From positions 159,837 to 223,836 of the IMG/VR virus record IMGVR_UViG_3300040801_002079: a stretch of DNA of 64,000 nucleotides, one strand, 5' to 3'. Positions 7,122-56,712 of this stretch are shown here, piece by piece; the stretch's first letter is position 1, and every line of letters begins with the position of its first letter. Source of the DNA: a virus. The notes under the pieces were generated by a model, which searched no databases, was not told the DNA's origin, and saw only the letters and a program-made list of their open reading frames with translations. A program made the position numbers and the translations under genes.

Positions 7122-8711
7122 ATGAAATTAGAATTTAGACAGGGCTTAGTCCAAATACAATCTACACCACCATTTATAACTACATCGGGCGGCAGTGTAA
7201 GTCTAAATTCGTCTGTAACCGATAATATTGTAACATTTGCACACGGTGAAGATAATTACCTTTTTATAGAATCTAATGATCTTCCCGGTGCATGGACGGG
7301 TCCATTCGGGGCTGGAACAACGTGGCTCTATTGGAATCTGGATATAGAGACTGGAGTAAGAACCTTCGGAAGTACCACTCTTGACCCAACTGGATATGGA
7401 GATGATATGCCATCCAGTCCAGTAATGGGTGAAATGTTCTTTTCAACATTAGAAAATAAAATGAAGGAATGGAATGGTTATAAATGGGTAACCGTTCTGC
7501 GTGTACTTGCAGGGGAAATAACTGGGGGAACATTAACGCCATATAGCGAAGGATCACAAATCTCAGATGATTTTCAAGCATATGCAGGATATTTGCTTTT
7601 TGATGAAAATGGAAATCCATTTAAAGAATCTGATCCATTTAATCGTGGTCATTTTGTACATACTGAGACAAGGCTTAAAGCACAAAATACACCACTCAAT
7701 CAATACGAGCAAAGAAATACCGAATATTCATATACATCGGATACATCAATACCTGAGGGTTATTGTGTAGCACTGATAGAAGACAAAACTCTAACCGTTG
7801 CATCATATAGAAAGCCTGAAAGACCATGTATTGGAATATCATTAATGGACTTATATGCTGGTGATATGGGCAGGTATGTGACGGAGGGGGTGCTGACCTT
7901 TGAGGGCTGGAATTTTGATTCCGTACCTAATACCCCTGTTTGGGTTGGACCAAATGGAGAAGTTACCACCACTGTACCAACCGAAACTTCAATTCAGAGG
8001 TTAGGGTTTGTGGTTTCAAAAAACAGTATACTATTGGATATAAGAGAGCCGGTTTTACTAGACCCATCTTATAAGGACTGCTTTGTTCCATCACCAACTC
8101 CAACTCCAACTCCAACTGTTACACCAACCATTACTGCAACCGTTACACCCACGGCGACAGTTACACCAACTGTTACAGCTACGGCATCTGTTACACCAAC
8201 TGTTACCCCAACTACTACAGTTGATCCAACAGTAACACCAACTGTTACAGCCGCTATTACACCAACACCAACAGTAACACCAACAGTTACCCCAACTATG
8301 ACGGTAACGCCTGAAGTTAGCCCATCACCAACAACAACTCCTGCTCCATCTGCTGAGGCCACACCAACCCCAACTGTTACTTCAGGATTAACTCCAACTG
8401 TTACTCCAACTTCTACAGTTACACCAACAATTACTTCAACTGCGGAAGTAACACCAACCCCAACAGCTACGACTGGTCTAACACCAACAGTTACACCAGA
8501 GGTTACACCAACGAATACGGTAACACCTCCCGTTACACCAACAGTTACTCCATCTTTATCTGTTGGGGCATCCCCCACACCTACTCCAACGGTTACACCA
8601 ACGAACACGGCAACAACTACACCTACCCCAACAGTTACGCCGACAATGACAGTAACCCCAACTCCTTCCCCATTAAGCGGATTGAAGACACTCTTTATTG
8701 ACTGGACATAA
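7122..8711 (+). CDS. Fibre-like virion protein with long Pro/Thr repeat tail
   Basis: The 529-residue protein has a beta-rich N-terminal part (about 1-320). It includes MGEMFFSTLENKMKEWNGYKW, the (label)-(W/F)-x-G-x-W pattern of fibre proteins, and a distal segment of the type seen before the ends of tail proteins (SIQRLGFVVSKNSILLDI, about 288-305). From about residue 323 to 515 it is an almost uninterrupted PTPTVTPT-type low-complexity tract, then a short hydrophobic end. The tract is probably an extended rod or linker and is a candidate for O-glycosylation. The same tract type occurs in the adjacent protease and in four fibre genes on the other strand. Confidence 0.6.
   Translation: MKLEFRQGLVQIQSTPPFITTSGGSVSLNSSVTDNIVTFAHGEDNYLFIESNDLPGAWTGPFGAGTTWLYWNLDIETGVRTFGSTTLDPTGYGDDMPSSPVMGEMFFSTLENKMKEWNGYKWVTVLRVLAGEITGGTLTPYSEGSQISDDFQAYAGYLLFDENGNPFKESDPFNRGHFVHTETRLKAQNTPLNQYEQRNTEYSYTSDTSIPEGYCVALIEDKTLTVASYRKPERPCIGISLMDLYAGDMGRYVTEGVLTFEGWNFDSVPNTPVWVGPNGEVTTTVPTETSIQRLGFVVSKNSILLDIREPVLLDPSYKDCFVPSPTPTPTPTVTPTITATVTPTATVTPTVTATASVTPTVTPTTTVDPTVTPTVTAAITPTPTVTPTVTPTMTVTPEVSPSPTTTPAPSAEATPTPTVTSGLTPTVTPTSTVTPTITSTAEVTPTPTATTGLTPTVTPEVTPTNTVTPPVTPTVTPSLSVGASPTPTPTVTPTNTATTTPTPTVTPTMTVTPTPSPLSGLKTLFIDWT
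8088..8676 (+). repeat. Low-complexity Pro/Thr codon repeat
   Basis: Degenerate repeats of CCAACAGTTACACC-like units encode the PTPTVTPT tract. Related tracts lie on the minus strand at about 13795-13945, 15175-15350, 16680-16830 and 18060-18425. Such shared DNA could allow recombination between fibre genes. Antisense reading gives long spurious Val/Gly frames. Confidence 0.8.
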
Positions 8712-12246: not shown

Positions 12247-14547
12247 TTATGCTGGCTTAAAGAAGAAATATACCGTGGCCCGTGTTAGGGTTGCATCGTA
12301 TGTTGTCCAAACCGCAGGGAATGAAAGATTTGATGATCCGTAACTAGTCACTATACTCTGATTTATATAGTTAGTGTTCTCAGCTTCATTATAATAAACC
12401 CTATAAAATGTTCGCAAATAATTGACCACATATCCATCAGGAACATTTATATCAAATCCAGTTACATCTCCGTCATTGCCATCAATATCACTCGTTATAG
12501 ATAAAGAGAACTTTTCACCGTCAACGAAGGTCGTGGTCCTACTTCCAAACGAACTGGTTCCTCCGGTTTGTCTAATATCTGCACTTAACGTAAATGATCT
12601 TTCTGGAGTCGGCGTTGGGGAAGGGCCATCTGGTGGTGGGGTTCCATCTATGTTCCAACAGAATTGATTTAAATAATTACATATGTTTTTGCCTTCCATC
12701 CATCTAGTAGCAAAATCACCTGAAAATGAATCATTATGTATTATCTGAACCGCGCCATCTGGTAACAACGCCGCACTATCGAATGTTACATCATTCATAC
12801 TGAAGGTTCTAGTTCCCAAATTACAATTTCCGCTTCCATCAGAAACTCCTATATTTGTATACCCCATTGGTTGAGTTGAAGACTCACCAATCATTGCTAA
12901 TAACTGATTTCCTGTAATTCCCACGGGTTCAAATATAAAGAGCCATTTTCTTCCGGGTCCACCAATTTCTTGTAGATATAACCCAGCTTTACATATAGCA
13001 TATTCCGATGTAGTTCTAGACATAGAACCAAAATTATCATTATAATTATTATATCCAACTACTCTTGTCGCGTTAGAGAAAATTTGCCCAGCCGGAACGG
13101 TGTCGCCTTCGGCTGGTGTTATAACGGAGCAACTTCCTGTAACAGGAGCATCATCTACTCCATCATGATCCCAGCTTGAGTACCAATATGTCAATGTTCC
13201 GGGCGATGAAGGGAATGGCCCCTCAGTCCCCGGATTTGTTAAGTTTGTTCCACCCGCAGCACATCCACCAACATATCCAACCGAACTAATATCAGATGAT
13301 CCGGGTATCCACCATTGTCGGGTATTGCCAACACTATCAGTGAGAATAACTCTACCGTGGAATCTTACGGTCATGCTATAATTATTTTCAGTATTAAATT
13401 CCGCGCTATCAAATTTCAAACGAATATATGGTATTTCTCCGGGGGATATATTTGTACGCAATGATCCAGTTCCGTCTCCACCGAAATAACTCTTTAAGAC
13501 TGTGCTGAGGGGATATGCCGACCCCTGATAGTACGTGCCTCCACTTCCAACCTCAACTAAGCCAGAGGGATCACTTGTGGGAGATTGAATAGTGGCGAAT
13601 ACATTTTGGAAATCAACAGTGTAAGGTGGGACCCCACCACTAATGTTTTGTAATGAAAAATATGTACTCTGATCATATGCACTTTTTGCAACATTACCCT
13701 CAGTATCGATGTGTGATGTGTTCGTTCCGCCTCCGGGTCCGGGAGTTCCGGGATCACATGGTGCGGGAGATACATAGAGTCGCGTATCGACTCCTAATGG
13801 CTCTACTGGCTCGGGAGTATCGGTTGGAGTCGGTGATACCGGAGGTGAGGGGGGAGGCGTTCCTGCGGGGCTGCTAGTTGGTGTGACTGTAATTCCCACT
13901 GGAGGGGTTGGGGTTGGAGTAACCTCTGGTAAATCTGGGGGAGTAACCTGTTGCCCCAGATTGTTATTGCCGCGTATTCCTATAATTAAATAGTTTACGT
14001 AAGATTCAATAGTAGTGGTATCTCCTAACACCTTATAGTGCATGGTTACTCTTGCTTCAGAGTCAGTACCACAAGTCATTCCAGAAAATCCGGAATTATA
14101 TGCTGCGGGTGCTACTGACCATATACATTCAGAGTATTCAAACTCTCGGCCCGTTACAGGGCTAATGGGTTTAGGCAATTGCTGACCATGATATACTGTT
14201 CCCCAGTTTGCTGCAACATCATCGTAACTTGATATTGGAATCCAATATGTTCCATCCCAAAAATATAGCACACCAGATGTTGAGTTATACCAAAACTGTC
14301 CATGGGTTGGGTTAACAAGCAAATTCTCATGACTTTGCGATGTGTCGGGTGTTCCGGGAACAGATGGGTTTTCAGGGCAAGCAAAATTTTCTAGCAAGTG
14401 TAATAGATTTTCATTAAGATATTCACCATATTCTAGATTTATTCTTCCAAACATAGCAACATCAACAGAGGTTCTATTAACATCACCCTGTTTAACTTCT
14501 ATTGGACTAGCACTAACTTGTGTAAAATCTATTTTATATGTTGACAT
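12247..14547 (-). CDS. Tail-fibre/adhesin paralogue 1
   Basis: The 766-residue protein starts with a domain shared by all four tandem paralogues: an (A/L)FGR-x-x-x-YGE segment, NENLLHLLENFACP, then GQFWYNSTSG-x-LY-x-WDGT-x-W and a C-rich stretch (about 1-200). A Pro/Thr/Ser linker follows (about 205-250). Next is an Ig/SprB-like domain with GGVPPYTVDF (about 305-430), shared with paralogues 2 and 3, and then unique C-terminal beta domains. The N-terminal domain probably attaches to the virion and the variable end contacts the receptor. It is the longest of the four and follows a GATAAATA element at about 14570. Confidence 0.7.
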   Translation of the reverse strand: MSTYKIDFTQVSASPIEVKQGDVNRTSVDVAMFGRINLEYGEYLNENLLHLLENFACPENPSVPGTPDTSQSHENLLVNPTHGQFWYNSTSGVLYFWDGTYWIPISSYDDVAANWGTVYHGQQLPKPISPVTGREFEYSECIWSVAPAAYNSGFSGMTCGTDSEARVTMHYKVLGDTTTIESYVNYLIIGIRGNNNLGQQVTPPDLPEVTPTPTPPVGITVTPTSSPAGTPPPSPPVSPTPTDTPEPVEPLGVDTRLYVSPAPCDPGTPGPGGGTNTSHIDTEGNVAKSAYDQSTYFSLQNISGGVPPYTVDFQNVFATIQSPTSDPSGLVEVGSGGTYYQGSAYPLSTVLKSYFGGDGTGSLRTNISPGEIPYIRLKFDSAEFNTENNYSMTVRFHGRVILTDSVGNTRQWWIPGSSDISSVGYVGGCAAGGTNLTNPGTEGPFPSSPGTLTYWYSSWDHDGVDDAPVTGSCSVITPAEGDTVPAGQIFSNATRVVGYNNYNDNFGSMSRTTSEYAICKAGLYLQEIGGPGRKWLFIFEPVGITGNQLLAMIGESSTQPMGYTNIGVSDGSGNCNLGTRTFSMNDVTFDSAALLPDGAVQIIHNDSFSGDFATRWMEGKNICNYLNQFCWNIDGTPPPDGPSPTPTPERSFTLSADIRQTGGTSSFGSRTTTFVDGEKFSLSITSDIDGNDGDVTGFDINVPDGYVVNYLRTFYRVYYNEAENTNYINQSIVTSYGSSNLSFPAVWTTYDATLTRATVYFFFKPA

Positions 14548-14577: not shown

Positions 14578-15948
14578 TTAAAGACAATCCGGACATTCAT
14601 CACAATGTTCATAATGTCCATAGCTAATAGGAAGCTCCCAGTCAGTCGGCGTTCGATTATTTGAACCCCCAACAGGTGTTGGCTCTCTTGGTATATACCA
14701 ATTAACACTATTGCCTTCAGCATCTATTAGAATAACCCACCCTGACAATGTGTAGTTTATTCGATATGTGTAAGTTGGATCGAAATTATCAGGGTTATCA
14801 AACTTAGGAGTAAACTTAACATATGGTAGAGATGTTGTATTTAGATTTGTGCGCAACCACGATGTATCCGACCCCACTCCTCCATAATATCTTATATCCA
14901 TTGTCATTGGGGGCAGCGCATATTGTCGAGTCTGACTTTCCCCTGTTAAACTATACCACCCTGTTATCGGGCTAACGACTATCCATCTAAAGATTACTTG
15001 ATACGGTCCATTGCCTCCTGATAAATCCTGTAAGGACACATAATATGGTTGCTCAACTTGATTTATTTGTATTGATGGGCCACATGTGTTGTATAGTCTT
15101 ATTCCGGTTCCTCCGGGTCCGGGCGCTCCGGGGTCTCCGGGAGATGGTGCAGTATATAATCTGGTATTAATGCCCAGAGGTTGAGGAGACGGAGTTGGTG
15201 TAACTTCGGCTGTAACTGTTGGGGTTACTGTGCTTGTTGGAGTTACAGTTGGTGTAAAATCAGGGGTGCTCGTCACGGTAGGAGTAACTGTTGGGGTTAA
15301 TCCATATGTTGGGGTTGGGGTTGGAGTTATACCAGATGGAAGCGGTGGTGGAACTAAGCTTCCTTTGTTTTGATTCCCCTTTATTCCTATGATTAAGTAA
15401 TTCGCTGTTCCGGGAAGTAGATCGGGTGGGGTGCCGTATTCCATTGTAACAATGGCATTGTTGTCTGTTGCGCAATTTACAACACTAAACCCCGTATCAT
15501 ATGTCGCAGGAGCCACACACCATATACATTCGTTATATTCAAACTCTTGACCACTTGTTGGGCTTACAGGTTTAGGTATCTGCTCTCCATGAAATATTGA
15601 TCCCCAATTGGCAGCTACATCATCCATACTGCTAATTGGGGTCCACGCAGATTCTGTATAAACATATAATGTGCCTTTTGTTGTGTTATACCAGAATTGT
15701 CCATTTATTGAATTATCAAATATATTATCAAATGATAAATTGGTGTCTGGGTTTCCGGGATTTAAAGGGTCTTCGGGGCAGGCAAAGTTTTCCAATAGAT
15801 GAACAAGGTTTTCCTGAAGAGCGTCACCGTATTTTAATCGAATATATCCAAATAATGATATATCCGTAGATGTAGTATCAACAGATTGCTCATTAACCTT
15901 TATTGGAGCTAGGTTGATGTTTGTATATTGAACGGTATAAGTGGTCAT
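14578..15948 (-). CDS. Tail-fibre/adhesin paralogue 2
   Basis: The 456-residue protein repeats the common N-terminal domain (YGDALQENLVHLLENFACPEDP, cut here to the diagnostic part), then a Pro/Thr linker (about 205-255) and the Ig/SprB-like domain with LSGGNGPYQV. It ends soon after in CDECPDC, a Cys-rich tail that may bind metal or form disulfides. GGTGAGGA precedes the start at 15948. Confidence 0.7.
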   Translation of the reverse strand: MTTYTVQYTNINLAPIKVNEQSVDTTSTDISLFGYIRLKYGDALQENLVHLLENFACPEDPLNPGNPDTNLSFDNIFDNSINGQFWYNTTKGTLYVYTESAWTPISSMDDVAANWGSIFHGEQIPKPVSPTSGQEFEYNECIWCVAPATYDTGFSVVNCATDNNAIVTMEYGTPPDLLPGTANYLIIGIKGNQNKGSLVPPPLPSGITPTPTPTYGLTPTVTPTVTSTPDFTPTVTPTSTVTPTVTAEVTPTPSPQPLGINTRLYTAPSPGDPGAPGPGGTGIRLYNTCGPSIQINQVEQPYYVSLQDLSGGNGPYQVIFRWIVVSPITGWYSLTGESQTRQYALPPMTMDIRYYGGVGSDTSWLRTNLNTTSLPYVKFTPKFDNPDNFDPTYTYRINYTLSGWVILIDAEGNSVNWYIPREPTPVGGSNNRTPTDWELPISYGHYEHCDECPDCL

Positions 15949-17690: not shown

Positions 17691-19057
17691 TATAGTATTT
17701 CCCCGCTCCCCTCGACTGTTAATGCAAGCCTAATATCATCAGAGTCGCCTTTTGGTCCAGTTATTGTTACAACTATAACCTGAGTCCATTCACTTCCTGA
17801 TGTTGGTGGACCTAAACACCACGATTTAGTTGTGCCCAGATTACCCGATGTTGGCCCGGATGCTACAGGATATGGAAATTCTTGGGTGGCGGTAAATGTA
17901 TAATCTGATCCATCTTCTCCATCTCTAAATCCATTAACTACCCACTCACCATAAACTCCACATGATGCTGCAACGACAGTTCCGTTGGAGTTTATGCTTA
18001 TACATGCGGTTGAAGCCGTCTTAAGACAAGCATAAAAGCCGCCCTTAACATCGCCAGTTGGATCAACTGATAGAGATGGTGTAACCTCTGGTGTAACAGT
18101 TGGATCAGGCGTATTTGATGGTGTAACTGGAGGCGTTGGCAATGGAGTCTCCGTGGGGTCAGGCGTACTTGACTGCGTTGGTCCGGGAGTTCCTGCGGGC
18201 GTATTTGATGGAGTAACTGGGGGCGTTGGCTCTGGAGTATTTGTTGGTGTAGCAGTAACTCCGGGTGCGGGTGTATTTGATGGCGTAACAGTATTGGTCG
18301 GTGTAACTGTTGGTGTATTTGTTGGGGTTGGCTGTGGAGAGCTTCCGGGAGTCACCGTTGGGGTTGCGGTAACAACCGGTGTTCCAGTTTGAGTTGGCGT
18401 TGGTGTAGGAGTTGCCGCCTCTGGTAAACTTGGAACAGGGCCGATTGCTCCCAGATTTGCATTATCCCTTATGCCAACAATCTGATAATTAACTAACCCA
18501 GTAGTTAAATCGGAACCAACGGGACGATACTGCATATTAACTGTTGCCTGATCATCAGTAGAACAAACCATGTAGTTAATATCATCAGGGTAATTAAACG
18601 GGGAAACTATCCACGAACATTCTTCATATTGAAATACATATCCTGTTGTGGGACATACGGGCTGTGGCAATTGCTCACCGTGTGCAATCACTCCATAGTT
18701 GCCAGCAACATCACACCCTGTACCAAGTGCCGTCCATTCTGTTCCATTATATCGATAAGGTCTTTTATCCGTTGTGTTATACCAAATCTGTCCCTCAATA
18801 GGGTTTTCAAGAAGTGCGCCAAATGCATTGGCTAAATCTGGATTTCCGGGATTACCAGCATCTTCGGGACAGGCAAAGTGTTCTAATAAATGTAAAACAT
18901 TTTCATTAAATATTTCACCATAATCTCGTTTTGTTTTACCAACGAACGCGATGTCGGCTTTATTTGTAATCAATTCACCCTTGGAAACAAAGATTGCATC
19001 TTTGCTGGCATCGGTAAAGTTTATTGTATAAAGATTTTGTGAGCAGTTAGTTGCCAT
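17690..19057 (-). CDS. Tail-fibre/adhesin paralogue 4
   Basis: The 455-residue protein has the common N-terminal domain ([37 protein letters not shown]) and the longest Pro/Thr linker of the four (about 215-335). It lacks the Ig/SprB-like domain and ends in a short, different beta domain (about 345-455). It is first in the minus-strand fibre operon. GGGAT and an AATAAATA element lie upstream. Confidence 0.7.
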
Positions 19058-31776: not shown

Positions 31777-33480
31777 CTAAAAATCTCCCCTGAATTCCCC
31801 ATCAACAATATGAATGAGGGTTCTTGAACCATCTTCATAAATGATACAATGGGTGTGCATCCAACTACTTGGACCCTTAGCGTACTCAAGGTCACGCTTA
31901 GCACTAAGTCCAAGCTGATATGCACCTTCCTTAATTCCCGGAGTATGGGAGTGTCCAATTACAACTTTAGGTCCAATCTTAGAGAAAGATGTAATGGTGC
32001 CTTTGCCACCGGCAGTTCCATGATCACCATGATATCCAACTTCAATATCTTTAATCATGAAACTCTCATCTCTCTTTAAGAACCTAACGTTGTCTCGGTT
32101 GCTAAGACCCCGTTCACTTTCTGGATTGAAGCACCACCAAGCAAATGCATCAAATGTTTCAAACCCTGTTTCAGTCATTCTAACATTATCAAGTTGATGA
32201 TACTTCATATAGTAATAGAACTTTGAATTCTCTGGGTCGATCTTGGGATCACATTCCTTCAGCCATCGATCAAATGCTTCATCATGGTTAGAGCGAACAA
32301 TGATGGTCTGAGTCTCGGGAGAAACATGTCGATCAATATAATCTGCCGTTACTTGTAGCCCCCTCTCAACATTGTTTCTACCAAAGTGATGCTTACCATA
32401 GGCCAAGACATCATCACCCCTATGGTGGTGATTGCGTCGATAGAAATCATCAACATCATGCTTAACCTGATATTTTGGTCGCAAGAGTCCCATCATTGAA
32501 TTTTCACCAACATATGTTGCTCTTTCAACGTCCTCACAAATAAACTCGGCGTGTGAGTCACCCGTAATTAACGCTTCGACTCTCACCCCTGTTCGGTGAG
32601 AAGCTATGCCATAAAACGAATCTAAATCATAAAATCCACGCAACTTATGATTCCAATGTATATGGCGCATATGATGATGCCCATTACCATCAACTTCAAC
32701 TATAAGGGCAGCAAAACTATGATGAAACGCACCCTTATGACCAGCTTTAGAATCTGTGAAATTGGGGTGGGTTATGCTTCCCGTTGTTGACAGCAGTTTT
32801 GGTAACTTCTGACTGGGTGTTGCAATGCTTCGAAGTTCAATTTTGGGATGCCCAAACACACCCGATGATAGCCCAGTATAACTCTCAAATCCAACCAGTG
32901 GATTAATGGCAGTGGGCTGAATTTTAATGTGTCCCATATATTCAAAGGACTTAGCTAACTTCCTTGAATAATTGTGCAGGTATGGTTGCACACTGGGGTG
33001 CCACCATTCATCCTCTTGATTCTTGCTTGTCCATATGGATGTTGGGTTCCTATATCTCGTAGGGATAACCAGAAGTTCTGCGTCCATTATATTGCAATAA
33101 TTTAATATAGCTTTAAGGAAGTTTTCCTCAACAGGGGTCGCATTTTGCGCTGAAGTTATAATGTATCGCTTGTTAACTTCATATTCAGTAATTCTCTCGG
33201 GTATTCGCTTCTCCTGAAGAAGTTCAATTGTTTCCTCAAACTCATCCATTACATCGGCTGGAATATCAGACTCTCCTGATAATTCAAGAGCGTCTAGTAG
33301 AAGCCCCGTCCTATCAGAAATCTTGAGTCGCTTTCGCATAAGCGAATCGGGCTGCATTCCCAAATAACTTGCCAACTGTTCCCTACTAAGGCCAGCTTTA
33401 ATAGCTGCCTTATAGGTCGTTATAAATTTTAAGTTTGGGTCTAAATCGAACTTTTCCAATTCTAGTTGTAAATAATCCAT
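31777..33480 (-). CDS. Calcineurin-like metallophosphoesterase, T5 A1-like, with HTH
   Basis: The 567-residue protein has a helix-turn-helix near its N-terminus (TYKAAIKAGLSREQLASYLG). Its metallophosphoesterase motifs come in order: GDSH, SNHDE, GYHGDHG and GHSHTPG. The pattern resembles the A1 pre-early protein of phage T5, needed for host DNA breakdown and DNA transfer; this similarity is from memory. The ATG at 33480 has AAGGAG 7 nt upstream and is preferred to a start at 33516. A sigma70-type promoter at 33507-33534 suggests early expression, which fits a host takeover role. Alternatively a DNA repair nuclease. Confidence 0.6.
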   Translation of the reverse strand: MDYLQLELEKFDLDPNLKFITTYKAAIKAGLSREQLASYLGMQPDSLMRKRLKISDRTGLLLDALELSGESDIPADVMDEFEETIELLQEKRIPERITEYEVNKRYIITSAQNATPVEENFLKAILNYCNIMDAELLVIPTRYRNPTSIWTSKNQEDEWWHPSVQPYLHNYSRKLAKSFEYMGHIKIQPTAINPLVGFESYTGLSSGVFGHPKIELRSIATPSQKLPKLLSTTGSITHPNFTDSKAGHKGAFHHSFAALIVEVDGNGHHHMRHIHWNHKLRGFYDLDSFYGIASHRTGVRVEALITGDSHAEFICEDVERATYVGENSMMGLLRPKYQVKHDVDDFYRRNHHHRGDDVLAYGKHHFGRNNVERGLQVTADYIDRHVSPETQTIIVRSNHDEAFDRWLKECDPKIDPENSKFYYYMKYHQLDNVRMTETGFETFDAFAWWCFNPESERGLSNRDNVRFLKRDESFMIKDIEVGYHGDHGTAGGKGTITSFSKIGPKVVIGHSHTPGIKEGAYQLGLSAKRDLEYAKGPSSWMHTHCIIYEDGSRTLIHIVDGEFRGDF

Positions 33481-33506
33481 TGAGTTATACTCCTTGCATT
33501 TTGTGC

Positions 33507-33534
33507 ATAATAACACGCATTTATATTATGTCAA
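33507..33534 (-). promoter_or_regulatory. Sigma70-type promoter for the metallophosphoesterase
   Basis: On the minus strand TTGACA (33534-33529), a 16-nt spacer and TATTAT (33512-33507), about 27 nt before the ATG at 33480. A TATAAATG within the spacer resembles the late element. Confidence 0.6.
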
Positions 33535-37897: not shown

Positions 37898-39601
37898 TTA
37901 ATCTTTTTTAAATTCTTCGTCTATCTCATCTGGACGAGTCACCGTTGATGATTCTGTATCAGAAAATTCTTGCAACCTTCTGCGTATAACAGATTCATAT
38001 GCTCGTCGGTCAGTTTCCATGAATATCCACGTACCCTTACTTTCCGAATATCGATATAAGCGGGGTGGTATCCCTTGTCGTATCTTGGTATACGTTAATC
38101 GGTGATAATCTCTATCCTTTGGATTATCCGGGAATTCATCTCCTGTAGTAAAAGGCTCACCGTTTGGTGGCATACCATCTTGTGCCCAAAAGTTTCTAGC
38201 CCGATCATACTTTTGCATTTTAGCATCATTGTTTTCTTCTGACCACTCATAGACCTCATCCGAAAACTTCGTCACGTTAGCAGTATCTTCGCCCCTTTCA
38301 GGAACTGCGGTGTCTGCTTCCGCCTGTATGGTATGATCTACATCAAATATATCCTGATACTTCTTATTATTAACACCATCTCCCGTATCAGCTACGCCCA
38401 TTTCATCGTAGTCTTGTGTCATCTTACCAAATATATCTTGAGTTTCAGGAGATGCGTATGCTGGAGTTGCTATAATTCTAACCATTAGTGGTATCCATTG
38501 AGCAGAGTAACCATTCGGACTCCAATCAATATCTGCAACTTCAAGATATTTCAGTACTGGCGTTAAAGATGCAGTATACTGTTTTTCGCTCGGCAATTCA
38601 ATAATATCACCGATAACAATGGGACGGCCTAACGCTTTTATAACCGCAGACCAGCTAAGCTCTATAAAATACTGTTCACCGCCAATACCAGAAGATGACC
38701 CCCACTTGGCAAAAAACGATTGGCTATCAAAAGGACTATAACTGCCCTTTAACTTTTCTGGAAATTCAGAGTAATCTCTATCACGATTCTCCATAAAGAT
38801 TTTATCTTGTATATTATCAAGAGCAGTTGCTTCATATTCGATTAGTTGCAGTGCCTGAACTGACCAGTAATCAGTATCGGAGCCATTAAATGTTACGGGC
38901 CTAATTCTCCAAAATCTTGAAGGGACAGATGCTGGAAAATCTAATGTAACTATTCCATCACAGTCTGCTACATCTCGTATCCCAACACCAAACCATCGCT
39001 CTCCATCATGTGATCGCTCCAATCTTACTTTTGTAGCCCGATTAATGGAATCGCAACCCTGTGCAATTCTTATTCTGGAAATGTTATGTTTTTTAAATGT
39101 CTCAACACCGTATCTATTACGACCATTATCTAGTTTTATTTCACCAAAATCATAACCAATATACGCAGACTTAACTACGTCCTGACCAATTTGCACAGAA
39201 CGCCATTCAGTTTTAAATAAATCAAATGAGTTTATCGCTGGAAAGTTTGGATGTGCACCGCCCGATATAGGGGTTCCATCTCCGGTTAAGTCTACTAGTT
39301 TGCCCTGTTCATGAATTCCAAGTAGCTTGTATACATTAACATCCGCTCCACCAATGTTAAGCTGCTCTGTTATGTATGAGTCGGTGAGACATGCCTCTGA
39401 TGTATTTTCTGTTAACTCCCATGGGCTTCTGAAGTTATCTACAGGACATAACACACCATCTCTTACTTCAACGCATGTTCCGTCAAAGCAAGTGTTATCT
39501 CCACTGCCATTCCCATTTTGGGAATCATTCCCATTTTGGGAACCATCATTCCCACACTCCTCAAATGGCTCATTATAAATTATGCATGTAGACTTAGCCA
39601 T
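37898..39601 (-). CDS. Virion structural protein with discoidin-like domain
   Basis: The 567-residue protein has a Gly/Asn-rich N-terminal repeat (QNGND...QNGNG). A domain at about 115-275 resembles discoidin/F5-8 C carbohydrate-binding folds (YIGYDFG, RIRIAQG, VRLERSHDG, RFWRIRP). A segment about 320-405 (PIVIGDIIELPS...PVLKYLEVADIDW...ETQDIFG) I recall from structural proteins next to neck genes in T4-like phages. It lies 1 nt downstream of the large neck-like protein. Probable surface-exposed virion component. Confidence 0.55.
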   Translation of the reverse strand: MAKSTCIIYNEPFEECGNDGSQNGNDSQNGNGSGDNTCFDGTCVEVRDGVLCPVDNFRSPWELTENTSEACLTDSYITEQLNIGGADVNVYKLLGIHEQGKLVDLTGDGTPISGGAHPNFPAINSFDLFKTEWRSVQIGQDVVKSAYIGYDFGEIKLDNGRNRYGVETFKKHNISRIRIAQGCDSINRATKVRLERSHDGERWFGVGIRDVADCDGIVTLDFPASVPSRFWRIRPVTFNGSDTDYWSVQALQLIEYEATALDNIQDKIFMENRDRDYSEFPEKLKGSYSPFDSQSFFAKWGSSSGIGGEQYFIELSWSAVIKALGRPIVIGDIIELPSEKQYTASLTPVLKYLEVADIDWSPNGYSAQWIPLMVRIIATPAYASPETQDIFGKMTQDYDEMGVADTGDGVNNKKYQDIFDVDHTIQAEADTAVPERGEDTANVTKFSDEVYEWSEENNDAKMQKYDRARNFWAQDGMPPNGEPFTTGDEFPDNPKDRDYHRLTYTKIRQGIPPRLYRYSESKGTWIFMETDRRAYESVIRRRLQEFSDTESSTVTRPDEIDEEFKKD

Positions 39602-39602
39602 A

Positions 39603-42533
39603 TTATCCCATTATAAACGTAGCACCTTGTCCAGCCTCTTCTAGATTTTGCATAGATTTATCTTCTATTTCAACCAAGAGTTCAGCCTTTTCGGTTTCAG
39701 CTTGTGTGATAAGCTCTTGTGAGTTTAGGGTTGTGCTTCCGTTGGGTCCGGGTAGGGTCTGGAATTTACCTCGAATCTGGGATAGCATCATTTTAGATTC
39801 AGCAACAGCCCAGCGTTTAATCCATTCTCTGGTTTCCCTGCTTGTTAATAAATCCTGCTCAGTCCTTTCAATGTAGGCATCTAATAAAACTCTTTCATGA
39901 TCATACACTGTATGGAATATACTCAACTCTCTTGTATTTTCATGCCAATTAAAGGTTATATGATCTGCGAACAATATCTGCATGTCTTCAATATATGATG
40001 ATACCAAATGATAGCTTAGCATATCAAACGTACCGGTCCTATAAAGATGTAGCAGTGCTGCATAACCATAAACATCGTATGAACCTCGTGACAGCCCCGT
40101 GAGGAACCCAGAGCGCATACGATATAAGTAATTAATCCCCACTATTTTATTAAAGCCTACACATCTATTGGTTAGAATGTATTTTTGCTGATTGGGCTTC
40201 AGGTCTAGGAAAAAGAAATTTCTATGGTATCCAAATCCTGAGAACTTTCTAATCATACCTAGAGCCGCATTTATAGCCTCATCAATTTGATCGTCAGTTA
40301 ATTCAACCTTCTGACTTGGATGTCCAAGTCTTCTACGAATGATGGTGTGCATTTCACGCCGTTCATCCGGGCTTCCATCATCCCCAATGTGTAAAGCGTT
40401 CCATGTTGGTCCATGCTCTAGTCTAGAATTTCCATCAATTGGATCATAATAAATGACACTGGTGCTCAACGCAGTAAATAAGTTACCGGCTTCAATTACA
40501 ATGTTAAGACTCTGAGTACATCCAACCTCATAAGTAAAGAAGCATAAGCGATTTTTCTCAGTTGGTTTATTAGGGTTTATCAATATTACGCCAGCAATTG
40601 GATTAGCGGGAACCCATGTAGTTCCATCCCATTTATAAAGCAATTCATCTACATCATTTAAGACAAGCTCTCCTATTTCAGGATAGACCATACTATCAAT
40701 AAATGAAATTTCAACCCATTGTGCTCCATCCCATTTATACAGCTTATCGTTTATAGAATCAAACCAGTGTGTTCCAATTTCTATCACGTAAGGATCGTTT
40801 GCAGAATTTAATGGATCAATTACAGTCCATCCACCTAAACCATCCGATAATCTAAACACTCCATCGGAATCCAACCAACCATATCCATACCCAAGTTGCG
40901 TAGGATCAGTGGCTGTATCAATATATTCAACATCTTTGAATTCACATGCTGGAGTAATTAGCATCTGCATCTTCCCTGTTTCAGGATTTAACCAAATGCT
41001 ATTTTCTTCTAACTCTGGTGGCAATGACGGATCAACCGCACTCTGCACGAATGTCCCAGCTAAGCTCCAAACACTATTCTGCTCATCCCAAAGATACAAA
41101 TCATCAACAGATGGACTTGAATTCCACCATATATCACAACTCTTCCTATCGGTAGGATCAGAAATAGCCAACGTATATTCAAGATCAATCCATGCTGTAT
41201 TAGATGTGTTTCTCTTATAAAATAGCTGTTCAGAAGGCACAAACCAGTATGCTCCAGCAGCGGGATTATCTAGCTCACCCGCTTCATTTCTTTCTTCATA
41301 CCGTATATTAACCAAGTTGCCCCACGTATCTCCAGCCTCTCTGATCATCATAACGTCATCAGTGGAGTTATACCAATAGTCTCCGGGGGCTATGGTGTTG
41401 GGGTCATCAGATGCATAGATTGCATCAACGGTGTCCCAACCATTTATATCGGGCTTCCATTGTTTTAATTCATACTCAGATTCATCATACCAATAATCGT
41501 TACATGACATGACAGGAGGTAGAAGTGGGTTACGGGTTTGGATATATGTATAAAGCTTGCACCATTTGCTTTCTTGCCAAATCCAAGCATCAATACCGTC
41601 AAACCATACAGTGCCACATTCTGGTTGTGTTGGATCAAATGATAGTTTGAATAGTGGTATCTCAACCCATCCGGAACTTTCATATACAAAAAGACTTTCC
41701 CCGTCATACCAATAAGTTCCAAGTATTGGGGTACGAGGATCGTTATCATTTACTAAAACGGGATATTCGACATATTTGTCGTATTCCCATTTATATAATT
41801 TTTCATTCTCGGCATCAAAATAAAATTGACCGCAAGTTTCAAGATTACGCCTTTCAGCATCAGTTAATAAAATAAACTGTTTATTAATAGCGTCTACAAG
41901 GTCTGGGTATGTTGGAGCATCATGTCCCTCAATATTTACTTCGTATTCCTCACCATTAATGTTAATCTTAAACGCATAATCAACACCGGACTCTAGACCG
42001 GTTAGAGTTCCGTTACTGATAACATCAATGTCCAAACCTATATCCTGCTGTGCAGGAGTGTCGCCGTTTTCATTGTATTCCAAATAACCAGTGGGTAATG
42101 AATACGCATGAACGCCTTCACGATGATATCTGCCAACGGAATCTACGGCATATGCGGATACATAATACGGAGTTTTTTCTTTAACATCCTGTACAATCAG
42201 GGTCTTGGTTGTTTTGTCATGATAGAATGCGCCCAGTACTCGGGCATCATCAATCTTATCTCCAGCGTGTAGATCAGGATCAACAGTTGGATCACCCTCA
42301 TAATATGTCCCATCTTTGGGTGATGATTCTATGTAGTTCGCAGGTTTATCAGATACAATAATGACAATTCCGTCATATGCCTGATCTTCAACTGAACACC
42401 CTGCAACAGGCGGAGGTATGTTCCATTTAACCGTGCCTGTACCATCACCGTTGCGTATGAACGTTACATCTATGTTTTGACCTTCTGATCTTATTTGATT
42501 CGGTGTGTCACTGAACCCGTCATAAACTCCCAT
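39603..42533 (-). CDS. Large multi-module virion protein with C-terminal neck (gp13-like) domain
   Basis: At 976 residues it has three parts. The first is a fibronectin III-like N-terminus (about 20-150: GTVKWNIPPP...YYVSAYAVDS). About nine or ten repeats of roughly 50 residues follow (about 235-660), each with GTYWYDGESLFVYESSGWVE-like sequence (Y/W-D...L-Y-x-W-D...W). The C-terminal domain (about 725-976: IIRRRLGHPSQKVELTDDQ, NRCVGFNKIVGI, RGKFQTLPGPNGSTTLN) resembles neck proteins. T4 gp13 has about 309 residues, so most of this protein would be a fused adhesin-like array. A late element (42557-42564) and GGAG lie upstream. Confidence 0.6.
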   Translation of the reverse strand: MGVYDGFSDTPNQIRSEGQNIDVTFIRNGDGTGTVKWNIPPPVAGCSVEDQAYDGIVIIVSDKPANYIESSPKDGTYYEGDPTVDPDLHAGDKIDDARVLGAFYHDKTTKTLIVQDVKEKTPYYVSAYAVDSVGRYHREGVHAYSLPTGYLEYNENGDTPAQQDIGLDIDVISNGTLTGLESGVDYAFKININGEEYEVNIEGHDAPTYPDLVDAINKQFILLTDAERRNLETCGQFYFDAENEKLYKWEYDKYVEYPVLVNDNDPRTPILGTYWYDGESLFVYESSGWVEIPLFKLSFDPTQPECGTVWFDGIDAWIWQESKWCKLYTYIQTRNPLLPPVMSCNDYWYDESEYELKQWKPDINGWDTVDAIYASDDPNTIAPGDYWYNSTDDVMMIREAGDTWGNLVNIRYEERNEAGELDNPAAGAYWFVPSEQLFYKRNTSNTAWIDLEYTLAISDPTDRKSCDIWWNSSPSVDDLYLWDEQNSVWSLAGTFVQSAVDPSLPPELEENSIWLNPETGKMQMLITPACEFKDVEYIDTATDPTQLGYGYGWLDSDGVFRLSDGLGGWTVIDPLNSANDPYVIEIGTHWFDSINDKLYKWDGAQWVEISFIDSMVYPEIGELVLNDVDELLYKWDGTTWVPANPIAGVILINPNKPTEKNRLCFFTYEVGCTQSLNIVIEAGNLFTALSTSVIYYDPIDGNSRLEHGPTWNALHIGDDGSPDERREMHTIIRRRLGHPSQKVELTDDQIDEAINAALGMIRKFSGFGYHRNFFFLDLKPNQQKYILTNRCVGFNKIVGINYLYRMRSGFLTGLSRGSYDVYGYAALLHLYRTGTFDMLSYHLVSSYIEDMQILFADHITFNWHENTRELSIFHTVYDHERVLLDAYIERTEQDLLTSRETREWIKRWAVAESKMMLSQIRGKFQTLPGPNGSTTLNSQELITQAETEKAELLVEIEDKSMQNLEEAGQGATFIMG

Positions 42534-47339: not shown

Positions 47340-47415
47340 TGGTGGTGGAGGGCAGAATCGAACTGCCGTCTTCGGCCTTATGAGGACCGCGCTTTACCAA
47401 TTAAGCTACTCCACC
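47340..47415 (-). tRNA. tRNA with CAT anticodon (Met or Ile2)
   Basis: The cloverleaf has acceptor GGTGGAG/CTCCACC, anticodon loop CTCATAA, T arm GGCAG-TTCGATT-CTGCC and an encoded CCA. The G1-C72 pair argues against an initiator tRNA. Elongator Met and lysidine-modified Ile2 cannot be separated by eye. Confidence 0.9.
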
Positions 47416-47417
47416 TT

Positions 47418-47594
47418 TTAAGAAACTTCTTTCAGAAGATCAATTCGGTGACTATGCTCTTGACAGAATTCACACAATGATTGCTCTTCAATTTCTGGAC
47501 TTGGTTCTGGTTGTTTTTTCTGTGGCGACAGGAGACGGATGCCCCTGAACTGGAGACGGATACGCTTTTTTAATTTTGACCTTCTAGGTAACAT
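47418..47594 (-). CDS. Small basic protein with Cys/His end
   Basis: An open frame of 58 codons beginning MLPRRSKLKK, with a C-terminal CEFCQEHSH that could bind zinc. Its ATG overlaps the last codons of the gene upstream by 11 nt. It fills the gap before tRNA-Met. No strong ribosome site beyond coupling. Confidence 0.45.
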   Translation of the reverse strand: MLPRRSKLKKRIRLQFRGIRLLSPQKKQPEPSPEIEEQSLCEFCQEHSHRIDLLKEVS

Positions 47595-47871
47595 TGGTGT
47601 TCAGCACCAACTTTTTAACTACGTTATGATTTTTCATGTATTCCTCGTTTAAATACTCTTCACACTGTTCTAAATCTTTTCTTATAACAAGAGGAGTTCC
47701 CCTGCGATCTGTTATGCAAAATCCATCAGATACTTCATATATGATGTTGTTTAATGTTTTGTAGGTCAGCTTAGCCGTTTCATTTGTTGAATCGACAACC
47801 TTCAAAAATATTAAAAACTTCTGGGATTTGCTACTTTCATTTTCTATTATATCATAGTCAACAATGTCCAT
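47584..47871 (-). CDS. Hypothetical protein
   Basis: A 95-residue protein, not recognised, with an acidic N-terminus and a beta-rich middle. AATAAATA (47877-47884) lies about 6 nt before the ATG without a Shine-Dalgarno sequence, the leaderless-type arrangement seen elsewhere here. Confidence 0.5.
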   Translation of the reverse strand: MDIVDYDIIENESSKSQKFLIFLKVVDSTNETAKLTYKTLNNIIYEVSDGFCITDRRGTPLVIRKDLEQCEEYLNEEYMKNHNVVKKLVLNTNVT

Positions 47872-47910
47872 GCAACTATTTATTAGTTATGTAAAAGTAG
47901 TAAAAATGAC

Positions 47911-48008
47911 TGGCGGTGGGTGTGGGATTTGAACCCACGAGCCACCCTTTTAAAGGTGACTACTTCCTTAGCAGGGAAGCGCGATCAACCAGACTCTGCC
48001 AACCCACC
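47911..48008 (-). tRNA. tRNA-Ser (GCT)
   Basis: A 98-nt class II tRNA with a long variable arm, anticodon loop CTGCTAA between CTTCC and GGAAG, acceptor GGTGGGT/ACCCACC and an encoded CCA after discriminator G. Confidence 0.93.
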
Positions 48009-48149
48009 TTAATTAAATACATTCTTGCATTTACATTTTACACTGTGACAAACCTGACATGTATAAATCCACGCGGGTCCAGCATAAAATTTAACTGTAT
48101 CGATAACCATAGCTAAAGCGGCTACCTCTGTTGGACAAATATGAATCAT
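48009..48149 (-). CDS. Small Cys-rich protein
   Basis: An open frame of 46 codons: MIHICPTEVAALAMVIDTV at the start and a C-terminal TCQVCHSVKCKCK cluster. GGAG lies about 10 nt before the ATG, which overlaps the stop of a tiny frame upstream (ATGA). It resembles, from memory, tiny CP-x-E proteins of marine phages. It ends flush with tRNA-Ser. Confidence 0.55.
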   Translation of the reverse strand: MIHICPTEVAALAMVIDTVKFYAGPAWIYTCQVCHSVKCKCKNVFN

Positions 48150-48232
48150 TTACGAAGTCTCCATTTAATACCATAGGAGCACCCGAGCGAATCGCCCAAG
48201 CGCATAATCATTCTTTTCAAGAACTCTAACAT
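48146..48232 (-). CDS. Very small basic peptide
   Basis: A 28-codon frame (MLEFLKRMIMRLGDSLG...) starting 3 nt after the upstream stop and overlapping the next start by ATGA. Only coupling supports it. Confidence 0.3.
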   Translation of the reverse strand: MLEFLKRMIMRLGDSLGCSYGIKWRLRK

Positions 48233-48235
48233 TTA

Positions 48236-48556
48236 TCATTCTCTATATAAATTATTCTTGGTGGCGTAATCATCATACTTCTGTAAAAACTGAAGTAAAT
48301 CTCTTACATCATGTGGTGATATCATCGTATCACTGAACACATTACTATATGGATGCAGCCTGAAAATATACTTTATGCCATTCCATAAACGATTAAAAAA
48401 AGGACGGTCAGCGTTTAGCATCTGATGAATATAGAATTCGGGACAAGCAATATCACTCTCGTCTTCCCAATATTCAAACCTTATGACATGTTCTATATCA
48501 TAACAATCGCAATCGATTGTCAAGCGTCTTACGTCCTTTTCATATGCGTTTTTCAT
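48236..48556 (-). CDS. Conserved phage hypothetical protein
   Basis: A 106-residue soluble protein (IDCDCYDIEHVIRFEYWED, then KYIFRLHPYSN) similar, as I recall, to unassigned small proteins in phages of aquatic bacteria. Likely a beta-strand-rich N-terminus. First of a small operon ending at tRNA-Ser. Confidence 0.5.
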   Translation of the reverse strand: MKNAYEKDVRRLTIDCDCYDIEHVIRFEYWEDESDIACPEFYIHQMLNADRPFFNRLWNGIKYIFRLHPYSNVFSDTMISPHDVRDLLQFLQKYDDYATKNNLYRE

Positions 48557-48603
48557 ATACTACCTCAATTCAAAATCCAAAGAATGTAAAACTGTTTCAA
48601 AAG

Positions 48604-48680
48604 TGGTCGGACCAGCAAGATTCGAACTTGCGACCTCTCGGACCCAAACCGAGTGCTCTACCAGACTGAGCTATGATCCG
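48604..48680 (-). tRNA. tRNA-Pro (TGG)
   Basis: Anticodon loop TTTGGGT between CTCGG and CCGAG, acceptor CGGATCA/TGGTCCG, T arm GCAAG-TTCGAAT-CTTGC and an encoded CCA. Confidence 0.93.
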
Positions 48681-48740
48681 TCATTTTCAAAATATTATAA
48701 CACACTAAATATGTATAAACAACCATAAGGAACAATATTT

Positions 48741-49160
48741 ATGAATAAAGATAATGTAATTGATTTTGATTTGCAGTGCATTTATCATCCTGCCCACGAA
48801 AACAGATTTATGTTAAGGTTTGTTGCAGAAAGTAACGCCTTAAAAAATTTATCAAAGCAAGCCATTAGCTATTCATATGACCTAGTTGAAAAAAATATTA
48901 AGGTTATATTTGAAATAGCTGGCAGCGCAAATGTGGTGGAAGAAGAATTATTAGATTTCTGTTCCGGTTCAAAAAAGTTAGCGGGACATGGAAATTTTAT
49001 TGTCATTGAATTTTTATCCTCAACGGGCCTTACTCCGGAAAAGAGTATACACTGCATTGTAGACAACGTAATATCATGTAAAATGAAAGGAGATTATGCT
49101 GGAAGTGGTACATGTAAAGCAGAACTAATCTGCAATATTAGCAACTTTAAATTTTCTTAA
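48741..49160 (+). CDS. Hypothetical protein
   Basis: A 139-residue beta-rich protein without known motifs, on the opposite strand from its neighbours. AAGGAAC lies 8 nt before the ATG. The 3' end overlaps the methyltransferase gene by 14 nt (convergent). Confidence 0.55.
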   Translation: MNKDNVIDFDLQCIYHPAHENRFMLRFVAESNALKNLSKQAISYSYDLVEKNIKVIFEIAGSANVVEEELLDFCSGSKKLAGHGNFIVIEFLSSTGLTPEKSIHCIVDNVISCKMKGDYAGSGTCKAELICNISNFKFS

Positions 49161-49821
49161 AGATAAAAAGTAAAAATTGACCTCTCGTATACCGATGTTT
49201 CATTTTCATCATGTTATCAGGTAAGTAGCCAGCCACAAAACCGTTACTCATTATATATGTGTCCTGTCCATAAAATGTTTTCAACTGCATATCATTATTG
49301 GTGCACATCTTAACAAAATCCATATAAGAAAAATGGCGATAATGAAATTTGTTTGGATTTTTTTCCAGCGAAAGAATATCAGCATTTGGAACTGACGCAA
49401 CTAAATACCCTCCGGGCTTTAACGATTTCTCTAATTCAGCCACTAACGATGAGGCATCCTCTACATGTTCAATAGATTCAATGCTCGTTATAAAATCATA
49501 ACGTTTGTGTGGTAAACTAAATGGAAAATAATTTTCTTCAAATGAAGTGTTATTAGTTTTATAATGAACTCCTGCTTGCTGTATGGCAGGCCCGGATGCG
49601 TCAATTCCATGTACACTACAATTTAATTTATCAGCCATTAAATATGTACCGTACCCATTGCCACAAAAACAATCAAGCCCATTCAATTCATCTGTGCTTG
49701 GTCCTAATAAGTTCTTAATATGATGTGAAGCTAAATGATATCGGGCCAAGTGGTCGGCTCTAATTGCTGCCAACCGTGTCCCGGTTTGTCGTTCACCGCT
49801 ATGAAGTTGAAAATCGCTCAC
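49147..49821 (-). CDS. SAM-dependent methyltransferase
   Basis: The 224-residue class I methyltransferase has motif I LDCFCGNGYG (49-58), an acidic residue ending strand 2 (GIDASG, D74), and LKPGGYLVASVPN. It resembles small-molecule or sugar methylases rather than DNA methylases (no NPPY/DPPY motif). The GTG at 49821 has AGGGGAT about 7 nt upstream, and TATAAATA lies at 49845. It may belong functionally with the glycosylation cluster. Confidence 0.7.
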   Translation of the reverse strand: MSDFQLHSGERQTGTRLAAIRADHLARYHLASHHIKNLLGPSTDELNGLDCFCGNGYGTYLMADKLNCSVHGIDASGPAIQQAGVHYKTNNTSFEENYFPFSLPHKRYDFITSIESIEHVEDASSLVAELEKSLKPGGYLVASVPNADILSLEKNPNKFHYRHFSYMDFVKMCTNNDMQLKTFYGQDTYIMSNGFVAGYLPDNMMKMKHRYTRGQFLLFIFKKI

Positions 49822-49844
49822 ACATTATCCCCTATTAGTATTCA

Positions 49845-49852
49845 TATTTATA
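49845..49852 (-). promoter_or_regulatory. T4-type late promoter element TATAAATA
   Basis: Exact match 23 nt before the GTG start at 49821. Confidence 0.6.
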
Positions 49853-49856
49853 TGGT

Positions 49857-49890
49857 AATAAAAAGGGGGTTCAGAAGAACCCCCTCTATT
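49857..49890 (-). terminator. Rho-independent terminator
   Basis: Minus strand GGGGGTTC-ttct-GAACCCCC followed by TTTTTA, ending the transcript of the 432-residue protein. Confidence 0.88.
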
Positions 49891-49910
49891 TTTAACAGTT
49901 TGTAACTGTC

Positions 49911-51209
49911 TTACCAGCGGCTATACTGTTTTGGTGTGCCGTCCCTCTCCAACTCAGAGCCAGCCACAAACATTGGTCTAGTTTTGGAATAAGCTGCTGT
50001 GTTTTCACCGTTAGCCTCATCCCAAATTTTAGAATCACGACCAAGATCATTTCTAGCACCCATTAACTGGTTAACACTCTTATCAACTGGTGCAATTTCC
50101 TCGCGTGGCACATAGCCCGGAACAGGTGCTGCATGACCATAATCAATTCGATTGGCCTTATAGCACATTGTTCTCCATAAGTTATACTTAAATTGAGAAG
50201 TATTATATGTTAATATAGCACGAGGCATTATCCACCATGGATGATTAATAACCCACCACATACGATGATAGTTTGGTGAAGCTACTTGAATTCCTTTAAC
50301 GGATTTTTTACCATTAACATATGGTGCTTCAACAACTTCTCGCGGGTTAACATTTACAGCAATTTGGTGACTCTTTGCTCCAGCAATTGCCGCACCAAAT
50401 CCGCCATTTTGTGCCCATAAACCATGATACTTCCAGAACTCCATTTCTTCTTCAGTAAATGGAACTTCTGGATCAAGAGCGAAGTGACCAACACCTTCTT
50501 TTCCACGAACACGCTTTTCGTTTGCTCCATAAAAATCATACATGGGTAACATATAGCTCCATTGGTCCAGAGCATGGCCCATCATAGCTATAATTCTAGT
50601 AGTAGTACCAGTCTTACGTGCAGCCTCCTCTGTATGACTTAAGAAATAGTTTGCAGTCTCACGTTGATTACGAATAACAAAACATCCATTGGATCGTGAT
50701 CTTGACAATCCAAGAGTTTCTTTCTTAAATGCTATTTCGTTTCGAAAGCCTGCGTTTTTAATTTCTTTAACCATTGAACGGGGTAAGTTACCAACTTCAC
50801 CCATTGGTGCTTCCCACCAACCATCAAGCTCTACTGCTTCTGGTGGAGATATCTGGTGAAGAACAACTTCCCTTTCCGGTAGCTTATTATCAATTCTATT
50901 GCCGTTGGCATCAAAATTATCACCATCTGCAAATTTCTTTAATTTTTCAATTCTATCTAGAAGCCATAGATTAAAGCCATTTTTAGCTTGCTCCTCAAGA
51001 GTTGTAATCAACTGCTCAAGTTCCTCTAAATCGCTCAATTCATCTTCTGTATTATCTTCGATAGGGCCAACAATAAAGTTATCATCGGTATTCTCCTCAG
51101 TGGTTTCACCAAGGTTTTCCAAGATCGTCTGTACAACCTCGGACTCTTCGGGGCCAACGCCTCGTTCACATACTGGACATTCTTTCAAGTCGCGTTTATT
51201 ACTCATCAT
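49911..51209 (-). CDS. Uncharacterised late protein
   Basis: The 432-residue protein has an N-terminal CPVC pair, an acidic helical region (about 50-110) and a large aromatic-rich C-terminal domain (HRMWWVINHPWWIM, ELDGWWEAPMG). I do not recognise it. It has an exact late element (51237-51244), a strong AGGAGGT ribosome site and its own terminator. That cassette suggests an abundant late, probably virion, protein. The start may be either of two adjacent ATG codons. Confidence 0.6.
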   Translation of the reverse strand: MMSNKRDLKECPVCERGVGPEESEVVQTILENLGETTEENTDDNFIVGPIEDNTEDELSDLEELEQLITTLEEQAKNGFNLWLLDRIEKLKKFADGDNFDANGNRIDNKLPEREVVLHQISPPEAVELDGWWEAPMGEVGNLPRSMVKEIKNAGFRNEIAFKKETLGLSRSRSNGCFVIRNQRETANYFLSHTEEAARKTGTTTRIIAMMGHALDQWSYMLPMYDFYGANEKRVRGKEGVGHFALDPEVPFTEEEMEFWKYHGLWAQNGGFGAAIAGAKSHQIAVNVNPREVVEAPYVNGKKSVKGIQVASPNYHRMWWVINHPWWIMPRAILTYNTSQFKYNLWRTMCYKANRIDYGHAAPVPGYVPREEIAPVDKSVNQLMGARNDLGRDSKIWDEANGENTAAYSKTRPMFVAGSELERDGTPKQYSRW

Positions 51210-51236
51210 TACCTCCTAATTTGGCCTGACTACCAG

Positions 51237-51244
51237 TATTTATA
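51237..51244 (-). promoter_or_regulatory. T4-type late promoter element TATAAATA
   Basis: Exact match 27 nt before the ATG at 51209, followed by AGGAGGT. Confidence 0.7.
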
Positions 51245-51250
51245 CGGAGA

Positions 51251-52438: not shown

Positions 52439-52443
52439 AGTGA

Positions 52444-52451
52444 TATTTATA
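52444..52451 (-). promoter_or_regulatory. T4-type late promoter element TATAAATA
   Basis: Exact match between tRNA-Thr and the CCA-adding enzyme gene, 5 nt before its ATG. Confidence 0.5.
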
Positions 52452-52454
52452 AAC

Positions 52455-52530
52455 TGGTGCCCGCAGACGGAATTGAACCATCGCCTTCGTTCTTACCAAG
52501 AACGTGCTCTACCTGCTAAGCTATACGGGC
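52455..52530 (-). tRNA. tRNA-Thr (GGT)
   Basis: Anticodon loop TTGGTAA between CGTTC and GAACG, acceptor GCCCGTA/TGCGGGC, encoded CCA. Its first 15 nt are also the last codons and stop of the gene upstream. Confidence 0.93.
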
Positions 52531-53448: not shown

Positions 53449-53909
53449 GGCTTTTCCTTTATAATTTTAGCAGGACTCCCCGCAACAATCATGTTGGGCG
53501 GCACATCCTTATTAACAAAACTGTTTGCCCCAATTACTGAATTTTCCCATACTGTAATACCACAATTGAATGTAACATTAGCACCGGACCAAACATTATC
53601 TTTTATGTATAAGTGACTTCGTATTAGCTTCTTTTGAATATTGGGATTGGATGACATCTCATGATATGATGCCAGTAGTGTGCAGTGGGGTCCAATCATG
53701 GTTTCCTTACCTATAACAACTTCTCCCGTTGCCTGTACCATGGTAAAGAAACCCAGCACCGAATTGGCACCAATCTTTAACATTCCGTCAGCCATTTCTA
53801 TAATGCTGTTATGTCGTATCTGCGCCCCATTATCAATTATTACCGTTCCCGATCCCAGAAATTTAACGGTCTCATGCACTCGTCCATTGTTGATTACTTT
53901 AACTGCCAT
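53445..53909 (-). CDS. Hexapeptide-repeat acyltransferase
   Basis: The 154-residue left-handed beta-helix protein has repeating I-G-x-x-x-x units (GTVIIDNGAQI, LKIGANSVLG, VVIGKETMIGP) and the ending VIGANSFVNKDVPPNMIVAGSPAKII typical of sugar O-acetyltransferases. A histidine (SYHEM) may be catalytic. It would acylate a sugar made by the neighbouring glycosyltransferases. Confidence 0.8.
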   Translation of the reverse strand: MAVKVINNGRVHETVKFLGSGTVIIDNGAQIRHNSIIEMADGMLKIGANSVLGFFTMVQATGEVVIGKETMIGPHCTLLASYHEMSSNPNIQKKLIRSHLYIKDNVWSGANVTFNCGITVWENSVIGANSFVNKDVPPNMIVAGSPAKIIKEKP

Positions 53910-53911
53910 TT

Positions 53912-56682: not shown

Positions 56683-56712
56683 GCTTATTATTCTCCATAT
56701 AAGTGGTACATT

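Follow-up and report, generated by a model that had tools for sequence, protein, structure and literature searches.

A gp13-type neck protein with a fused N-terminal repeat array in a jumbo myophage lineage: a proposed built-in collar

Neck genes of the window

The window, the whole 64,000-nucleotide stretch of viral DNA analyzed here, encodes on its minus strand a 976-aa protein (39603..42533) whose open reading frame begins with an ATG at 42533 and continues in one frame, without internal stop, to 39603. By homology, the gene specifies a gp13/Ad2-type neck protein with an N-terminal appendage. From the N terminus, the predicted architecture comprises a fibronectin III-like (FN3) domain, a small domain split in two by an array of tryptophan-rich repeats, and a gp13-type domain. 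A ribosome site of the GGAG type lies 5' of the ATG in the window gene and in several relatives. In hmmscan, the PHROG family phrog_211 (head-tail adaptor Ad2) covered the entire length of the protein (E 3e-267). Within the phage collection, ordinary relatives align solely with its last ~260 residues, and the phrog_211 profile was therefore probably shaped by an array-bearing protein. Production of a separate short gp13 was rejected, as a search for in-frame internal starts turned up none with a Shine-Dalgarno sequence. A stop or frameshift artefact was also rejected, given that the window ORF and the relatives examined have no internal stop, as was a fusion unique to one assembly, since about 20 contigs and three isolates carry the gp13-array fusion.

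The next gene (37898..39601, minus strand) encodes a 567-aa protein that, from adjacency and homology, is a probable gp14-type head-closure protein (Hc2) with an N-terminal discoidin-type domain. This gene adjoins gp13 in the relatives examined. The C-terminal part of its product is common to virion structural proteins of PA5oct and Atu_ph07; the PA5oct homologue has mass-spectrometry evidence in its record, and the Atu_ph07 homologue is encoded next to gp13. Comparison with a nine-member gp14 profile gave a marginal match (hhalign E 0.0074, probability 5%) with a colinear GDLIxxP region, while T4 gp14 alone gave E 0.33. The F5/8 type C (discoidin, galactose-binding-like) region spans about residues 75-255 (38837..39379, minus strand). 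PF00754 matched the window protein with E 4e-4 and 20.9 bits, below the cut-off of 28.2, and matched 17 of the 24 alignment members of this family at E<=1 (best 5.5e-6); against discoidin chains in the PDB, E values ranged from 0.002 to 0.16. For short homologues encoded beside bare gp13 genes the alignment starts after the discoidin-type domain, i.e. the domain is missing. In one relative (L032:8956-11919) the probable gp14 is longer, with two added parts: a PT-rich linker and a leucine-rich domain of the BspA-like (DUF285) type (PF03382, E 1e-56). Together, the BspA-like and discoidin-type modules suggest that neck genes of the array lineage acquire adhesin-like modules.

Domain architecture of the gp13-type protein

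Residues 718-976 (39606..40382, minus strand) are a T4 gp13-type neck adaptor according to sequence, profile and predicted fold. These C-terminal ~259 residues matched T4 gp13 (PDB chains 9mkb and 9lu4) as a single-protein phmmer query (E 3e-9), and a family profile of the domain improved the match to E 5e-16. Furthermore, hhalign aligned residues 722-957 with T4 gp13 at 98.7% (E 2e-16). The predicted fold of the domain placed T4 gp13 first (Foldseek E 4e-10; VIA Z 13.7, rmsd 4.8, 119 aligned), followed by the P1 connector and head-tail proteins of VP1, GP4, SU10 and DEV. A preliminary description made from the DNA alone had recognized a gp13-like neck domain here and had named a tail-fibre fold as the finding that would overturn it. 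The matches to T4 gp13 bear out the neck assignment, and with T4 gp13 as the top fold match the tail-fibre fold was rejected.

The N-terminal domain (about residues 9-149; 42087..42509, minus strand) is fibronectin III-like, as the preliminary description had proposed. In the predicted model, residues 9-145 adopt an FN3 fold with VIA Z values of 8-8.9 against many FN3 chains, and, leaving aside the first 10 residues and the last 5, pLDDT by 10-residue block is about 65-91. A Pfam search returned no FN3 sequence match for the window protein.

The array (about residues 227-652; 40578..41855, minus strand) comprises W-rich beta repeats of about 34-45 aa each, averaging about 38 aa, with a consensus resembling DPxxPxxGxxWxNxxxxxLxxWDGxxWxxxxxI. 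The preliminary description had counted about ten W-D-G-type repeats; the array stands, and the count is eleven. A repeat profile, trained partly on the window repeats themselves, gives each of them 12-47 bits; the best of 200 shuffled versions of the segment reached 6.4 bits. AlphaFold2 predicted two to four short strands per repeat, mostly three or four, with array pLDDT of about 76-91 (mostly in the 80s); the whole-protein pTM of 0.38 leaves domain packing and array shape uncertain. Pfam matches to the array were all sub-threshold, with none to a carbohydrate-binding family above cut-off, and a search of the array sequence against the PDB gave no relevant match to a solved structure. Beta-propeller matches (ROS1, Sevenless, BT4663) were set aside, given TM-scores of 0.05-0.14 and rmsd above 35 A.

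The array is flanked by residues 150-226 (41856..42086, minus strand), which are weakly Flagellin_IN-like (E 0.048, under cut-off), and by residues 653-717, which include a linker (40383..40577, minus strand). Together these flanks resemble a single small domain cut in two. A joined-flank profile was built from residues 172-224 plus 648-693, leaving relative L044 out. In L044 this profile found both the split halves flanking the array and a separate, uninterrupted copy at residues 554-640, which scored 40.9 bits; the best of 100 shuffles scored 3.9. As this relative has an unsplit copy, the array is inserted inside one small domain, and its start and end must therefore lie at nearly one point. 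In two relatives with two repeats each (L049 and L051), both halves of the split domain are absent together.

Conservation and distribution of the array

Approximately 20 full-length homologues were recovered from IMG/VR and isolate genomes, 28-73% identical to the window protein in the best segment, each encoding the array within a single continuous ORF. Most contain ten or eleven repeats by profile, aligned in register; in L034, L042 and L044 a few repeat positions were weak or missed by the profile, and L044 has an extra domain within the array. The best match of a window repeat was the same-position repeat in 162 of 220 comparisons, with mean scores of 75 for same-position and 35 for different-position pairs. 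Across 21 full-length sequences, mean pairwise identity was highest in the FN3 domain (56%), followed by the gp13 domain (51%), the array (36%) and each flank (32%). The array on gp13 is thus, as judged from these sequences, a fixed trait of a lineage.

The preliminary description had suggested comparison with neck proteins of relatives lacking the array; bare gp13 proteins (~261 aa) do occur among the relatives, as do the two-repeat forms, both of which are divergent. Other jumbo relatives have a bare gp13, and the gp13 domain of the window protein is colinear with these short proteins. Genomes of the RaK2, PBECO4 and XbC2 types (345-368 kb) match or encode bare gp13 only, of about 261 aa. 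In a gp13-domain tree the array-bearing proteins cluster, the two-repeat forms among them, with a support of 93/97 that is not starred and with long branches present. An upstream-ORF repeat had been suspected in XbC2 and Hallingskeid, since the alignment began before gp13, and was rejected when no such repeat was seen by eye. Among 50,697 records, isolates with the array were restricted to XacN1, CM1 and RAS14. The homologues in Xanthomonas phage XacN1 (ORF268) and Stenotrophomonas phages RAS14 and CM1 are full-length, 44-47% identical and of the same architecture, differing in sequence only. Their annotation is "hypothetical protein" in XacN1 and RAS14, and the record of CM1 has none. These cultured phages make the array-bearing gp13 a named target for testing, and the two-repeat and bare relatives provide natural controls on what neck collars do.

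Repeats shared with fibre genes

Four paralogous fibre genes (12247-19057) have a common N-terminal base. The array repeat occurs once per base in three of the four (19-30 bits), and in a degenerate form in the fourth. The single copies lie on the minus strand at 14230..14313 (30.2 bits) in gene 12247-14547, at 15634..15705 (24.0 bits) in gene 14578-15948, and at 18728..18805 (19.4 bits) in gene 17690-19057. A fibre-base query, independent of the repeat profile, matched the XacN1 gp13 array (E 4e-5). The earlier remark that the gp13 repeats echo a segment of the fibre genes is thereby confirmed. The hairpin common to fibres and gp13 may simply be a widespread phage module. The window genome has four fibre-base genes; strong matches gave six each in XacN1 and RAS14, and three in each of two large contigs. 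The XacN1 paper reports neither tail-fibre homologues nor visible fibres (PMC5852040); despite this, the six strong fibre-base relatives in that phage are located at about 124885-133080 of AP018399.1.

Another linker-rich protein (7122-8711) has a single array repeat on the plus strand (7410..7496; 14.7 bits). It adjoins a protease-like protein (8715-10097, plus strand; phrog_20754).

Comparison with known neck appendages

Descriptions of neck appendages in tailed phages have treated them as separate proteins that attach to the neck. The window protein resembles T4 gp13 (Ad2, phrog_211) in the sequence and fold of residues 718-976 and in being followed by a probable gp14 gene; T4 gp13 differs in having neither FN3 domain nor repeat array, the T4 whiskers being a separate protein. 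T4 gp13 forms a dodecamer, and twelve fibritin fibres are bound by its domain III (PMC12270204). The T4 fibritin (Wac) whiskers would correspond to the array in proposed place and role on the gp13 ring, and correspond in encoded position relative to gp13, with wac directly upstream of gene 13 in the T4 genome. In contrast, fibritin is bound to the ring and the window array is covalently fused to it. Homology of the array to T4 fibritin was rejected, as no sequence relation was found (hhalign E 0.36). A search that was positive for T4, the control, found no Fibritin_C domain in the window genome, in XacN1 or RAS14, or in two large relatives; Fibritin_C is a short domain, and array-bearing phages may encode other whisker proteins.

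The collar of Milano and 7-7-1, the neck fibres of A-1(L) and the lactococcal neck passage structures likewise place extra protein around a phage neck, but judging from their descriptions they are products of separate genes. Ralstonia phage RsoM2USA, grouped with XacN1 by its authors (PMC8504454), has a neck protein (ORF401) whose 494 aa would suit the two-repeat form in a comparison by size alone. No description of an array-bearing gp13 was found in the literature within scope, which took in only a minority of subscription papers. The array-bearing gp13, comparable in kind to known neck whiskers and collars, is present in deposited genomes as a hypothetical protein or unannotated.

A proposed built-in collar

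The preliminary description's central proposal, the fusion of a neck-type protein to a long repeat array, is well supported by a single ORF and by the gp13 identity from both sequence and fold, as is a neck appendage in the array-bearing phages. We infer the outward position, collar form and function of the array. Our preferred reading, to which we assign a probability of roughly 60%, is that this jumbo myophage builds a gp13-type neck ring with a covalent appendage that serves as a mainly structural, built-in collar. By analogy with T4, twelve copies would presumably form a ring on the underside of the portal, between the portal and gp14, each copy bearing an FN3 domain and the small domain. 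Out of the small domain the eleven-repeat beta array would loop, its two ends leaving and returning at about the same place, and these arms would form the collar where T4 binds separate fibritin whiskers to gp13. The most likely work of such a collar would be to brace the neck and to organize the fibres whose bases bear the same hairpin repeat; contact with glycans through the discoidin-bearing neighbour would be a possible addition. The appendage amounts to ~80 kDa on each gp13 chain, and twelve copies, if so present, would add roughly 0.9 MDa around the neck. More speculatively, the ring could act as a fibre platform of its own, twelve loop-out arms docking about four to six interchangeable adhesive fibres through the shared hairpin and replacing fibritin altogether; we regard this extended version as unlikely.

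The collar had originally been proposed to be adhesive. The neck appendage in that description holds; it may be adhesive, but a built-in structural collar suits the evidence at least equally. In an adhesive collar, the repeats and the neighbouring discoidin-type domain would bind surface polysaccharide and hold the particle before the tail fibres engage. The repeats are aromatic-rich, the adjacent neck protein has a discoidin-type domain in array-bearing phages and not in bare-gp13 relatives, one relative adds the PT-rich linker and BspA-like leucine-rich domain to that neighbour, and lactococcal neck passage structures can bear carbohydrate-binding domains (PMC10684548). However, the repeats gave no above-cut-off match to a carbohydrate-binding family, and the A-1(L) neck fibre bears a distal carbohydrate-binding module that fails to bind the host (PMC10966104), which cautions against reading adhesion from a domain name. 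Moreover, a register that stays fixed at 28-73% identity and an FN3 domain whose conservation equals or exceeds that of the gp13 domain (56% versus 51%) are unlike a fast-evolving host-range adhesin. The fixed register and number of the repeats and the conserved FN3 domain thus favour a structural role over a variable adhesin, and an adhesive collar is possible but does not appear probable.

The same constancy of register and FN3 domain would also suit purely mechanical reinforcement, in which the array, touching neither host nor fibres, would pack on the capsid vertex or the sheath top and reinforce the junction of a very large head; covalent collars give robustness in phage Milano, a phage that lacks neck fibres (PMC10491603). 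Against this, phages of the RaK2, PBECO4 and XbC2 types manage similar genome sizes with a bare gp13, and two-repeat forms exist; we consider reinforcement of this kind doubtful as the whole explanation. The long N-terminal part could instead be a precursor segment removed by the prohead protease, or could act in assembly only, leaving a short gp13 in the mature neck. The gp13 domain is indeed colinear with short gp13 proteins, and myophages of this type process several head proteins. T4 neck proteins, on the other hand, join after packaging (PMC12270204), and the conservation of the FN3 domain suggests a lasting role, making a precursor very improbable.

Other features of the window

A phage tmRNA, apparently permuted (two-piece), is encoded at 4160-4529 on the plus strand, with the ARAGORN tag ANDSIYDQALAA. 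It matched the Rfam families tmRNA_permuted (123 bits) and beta_tmRNA (98.6 bits), and its betaproteobacterial type may point to the host. A protein encoded at 31777-33516 (minus strand) is a relative of the DNA transfer protein family phrog_1745; its XacN1 homologue is annotated as T5 A1-like, which is unusual in a myophage. A second gp23-like capsid paralogue, perhaps a vertex protein, is encoded at 56900-58009 on the plus strand, opposite to the major capsid gene. The region 47340-63946 contains nine tRNA genes together with genes for a CCA nucleotidyltransferase (51251-52438) and a tRNA methyltransferase relative (49147-49821).
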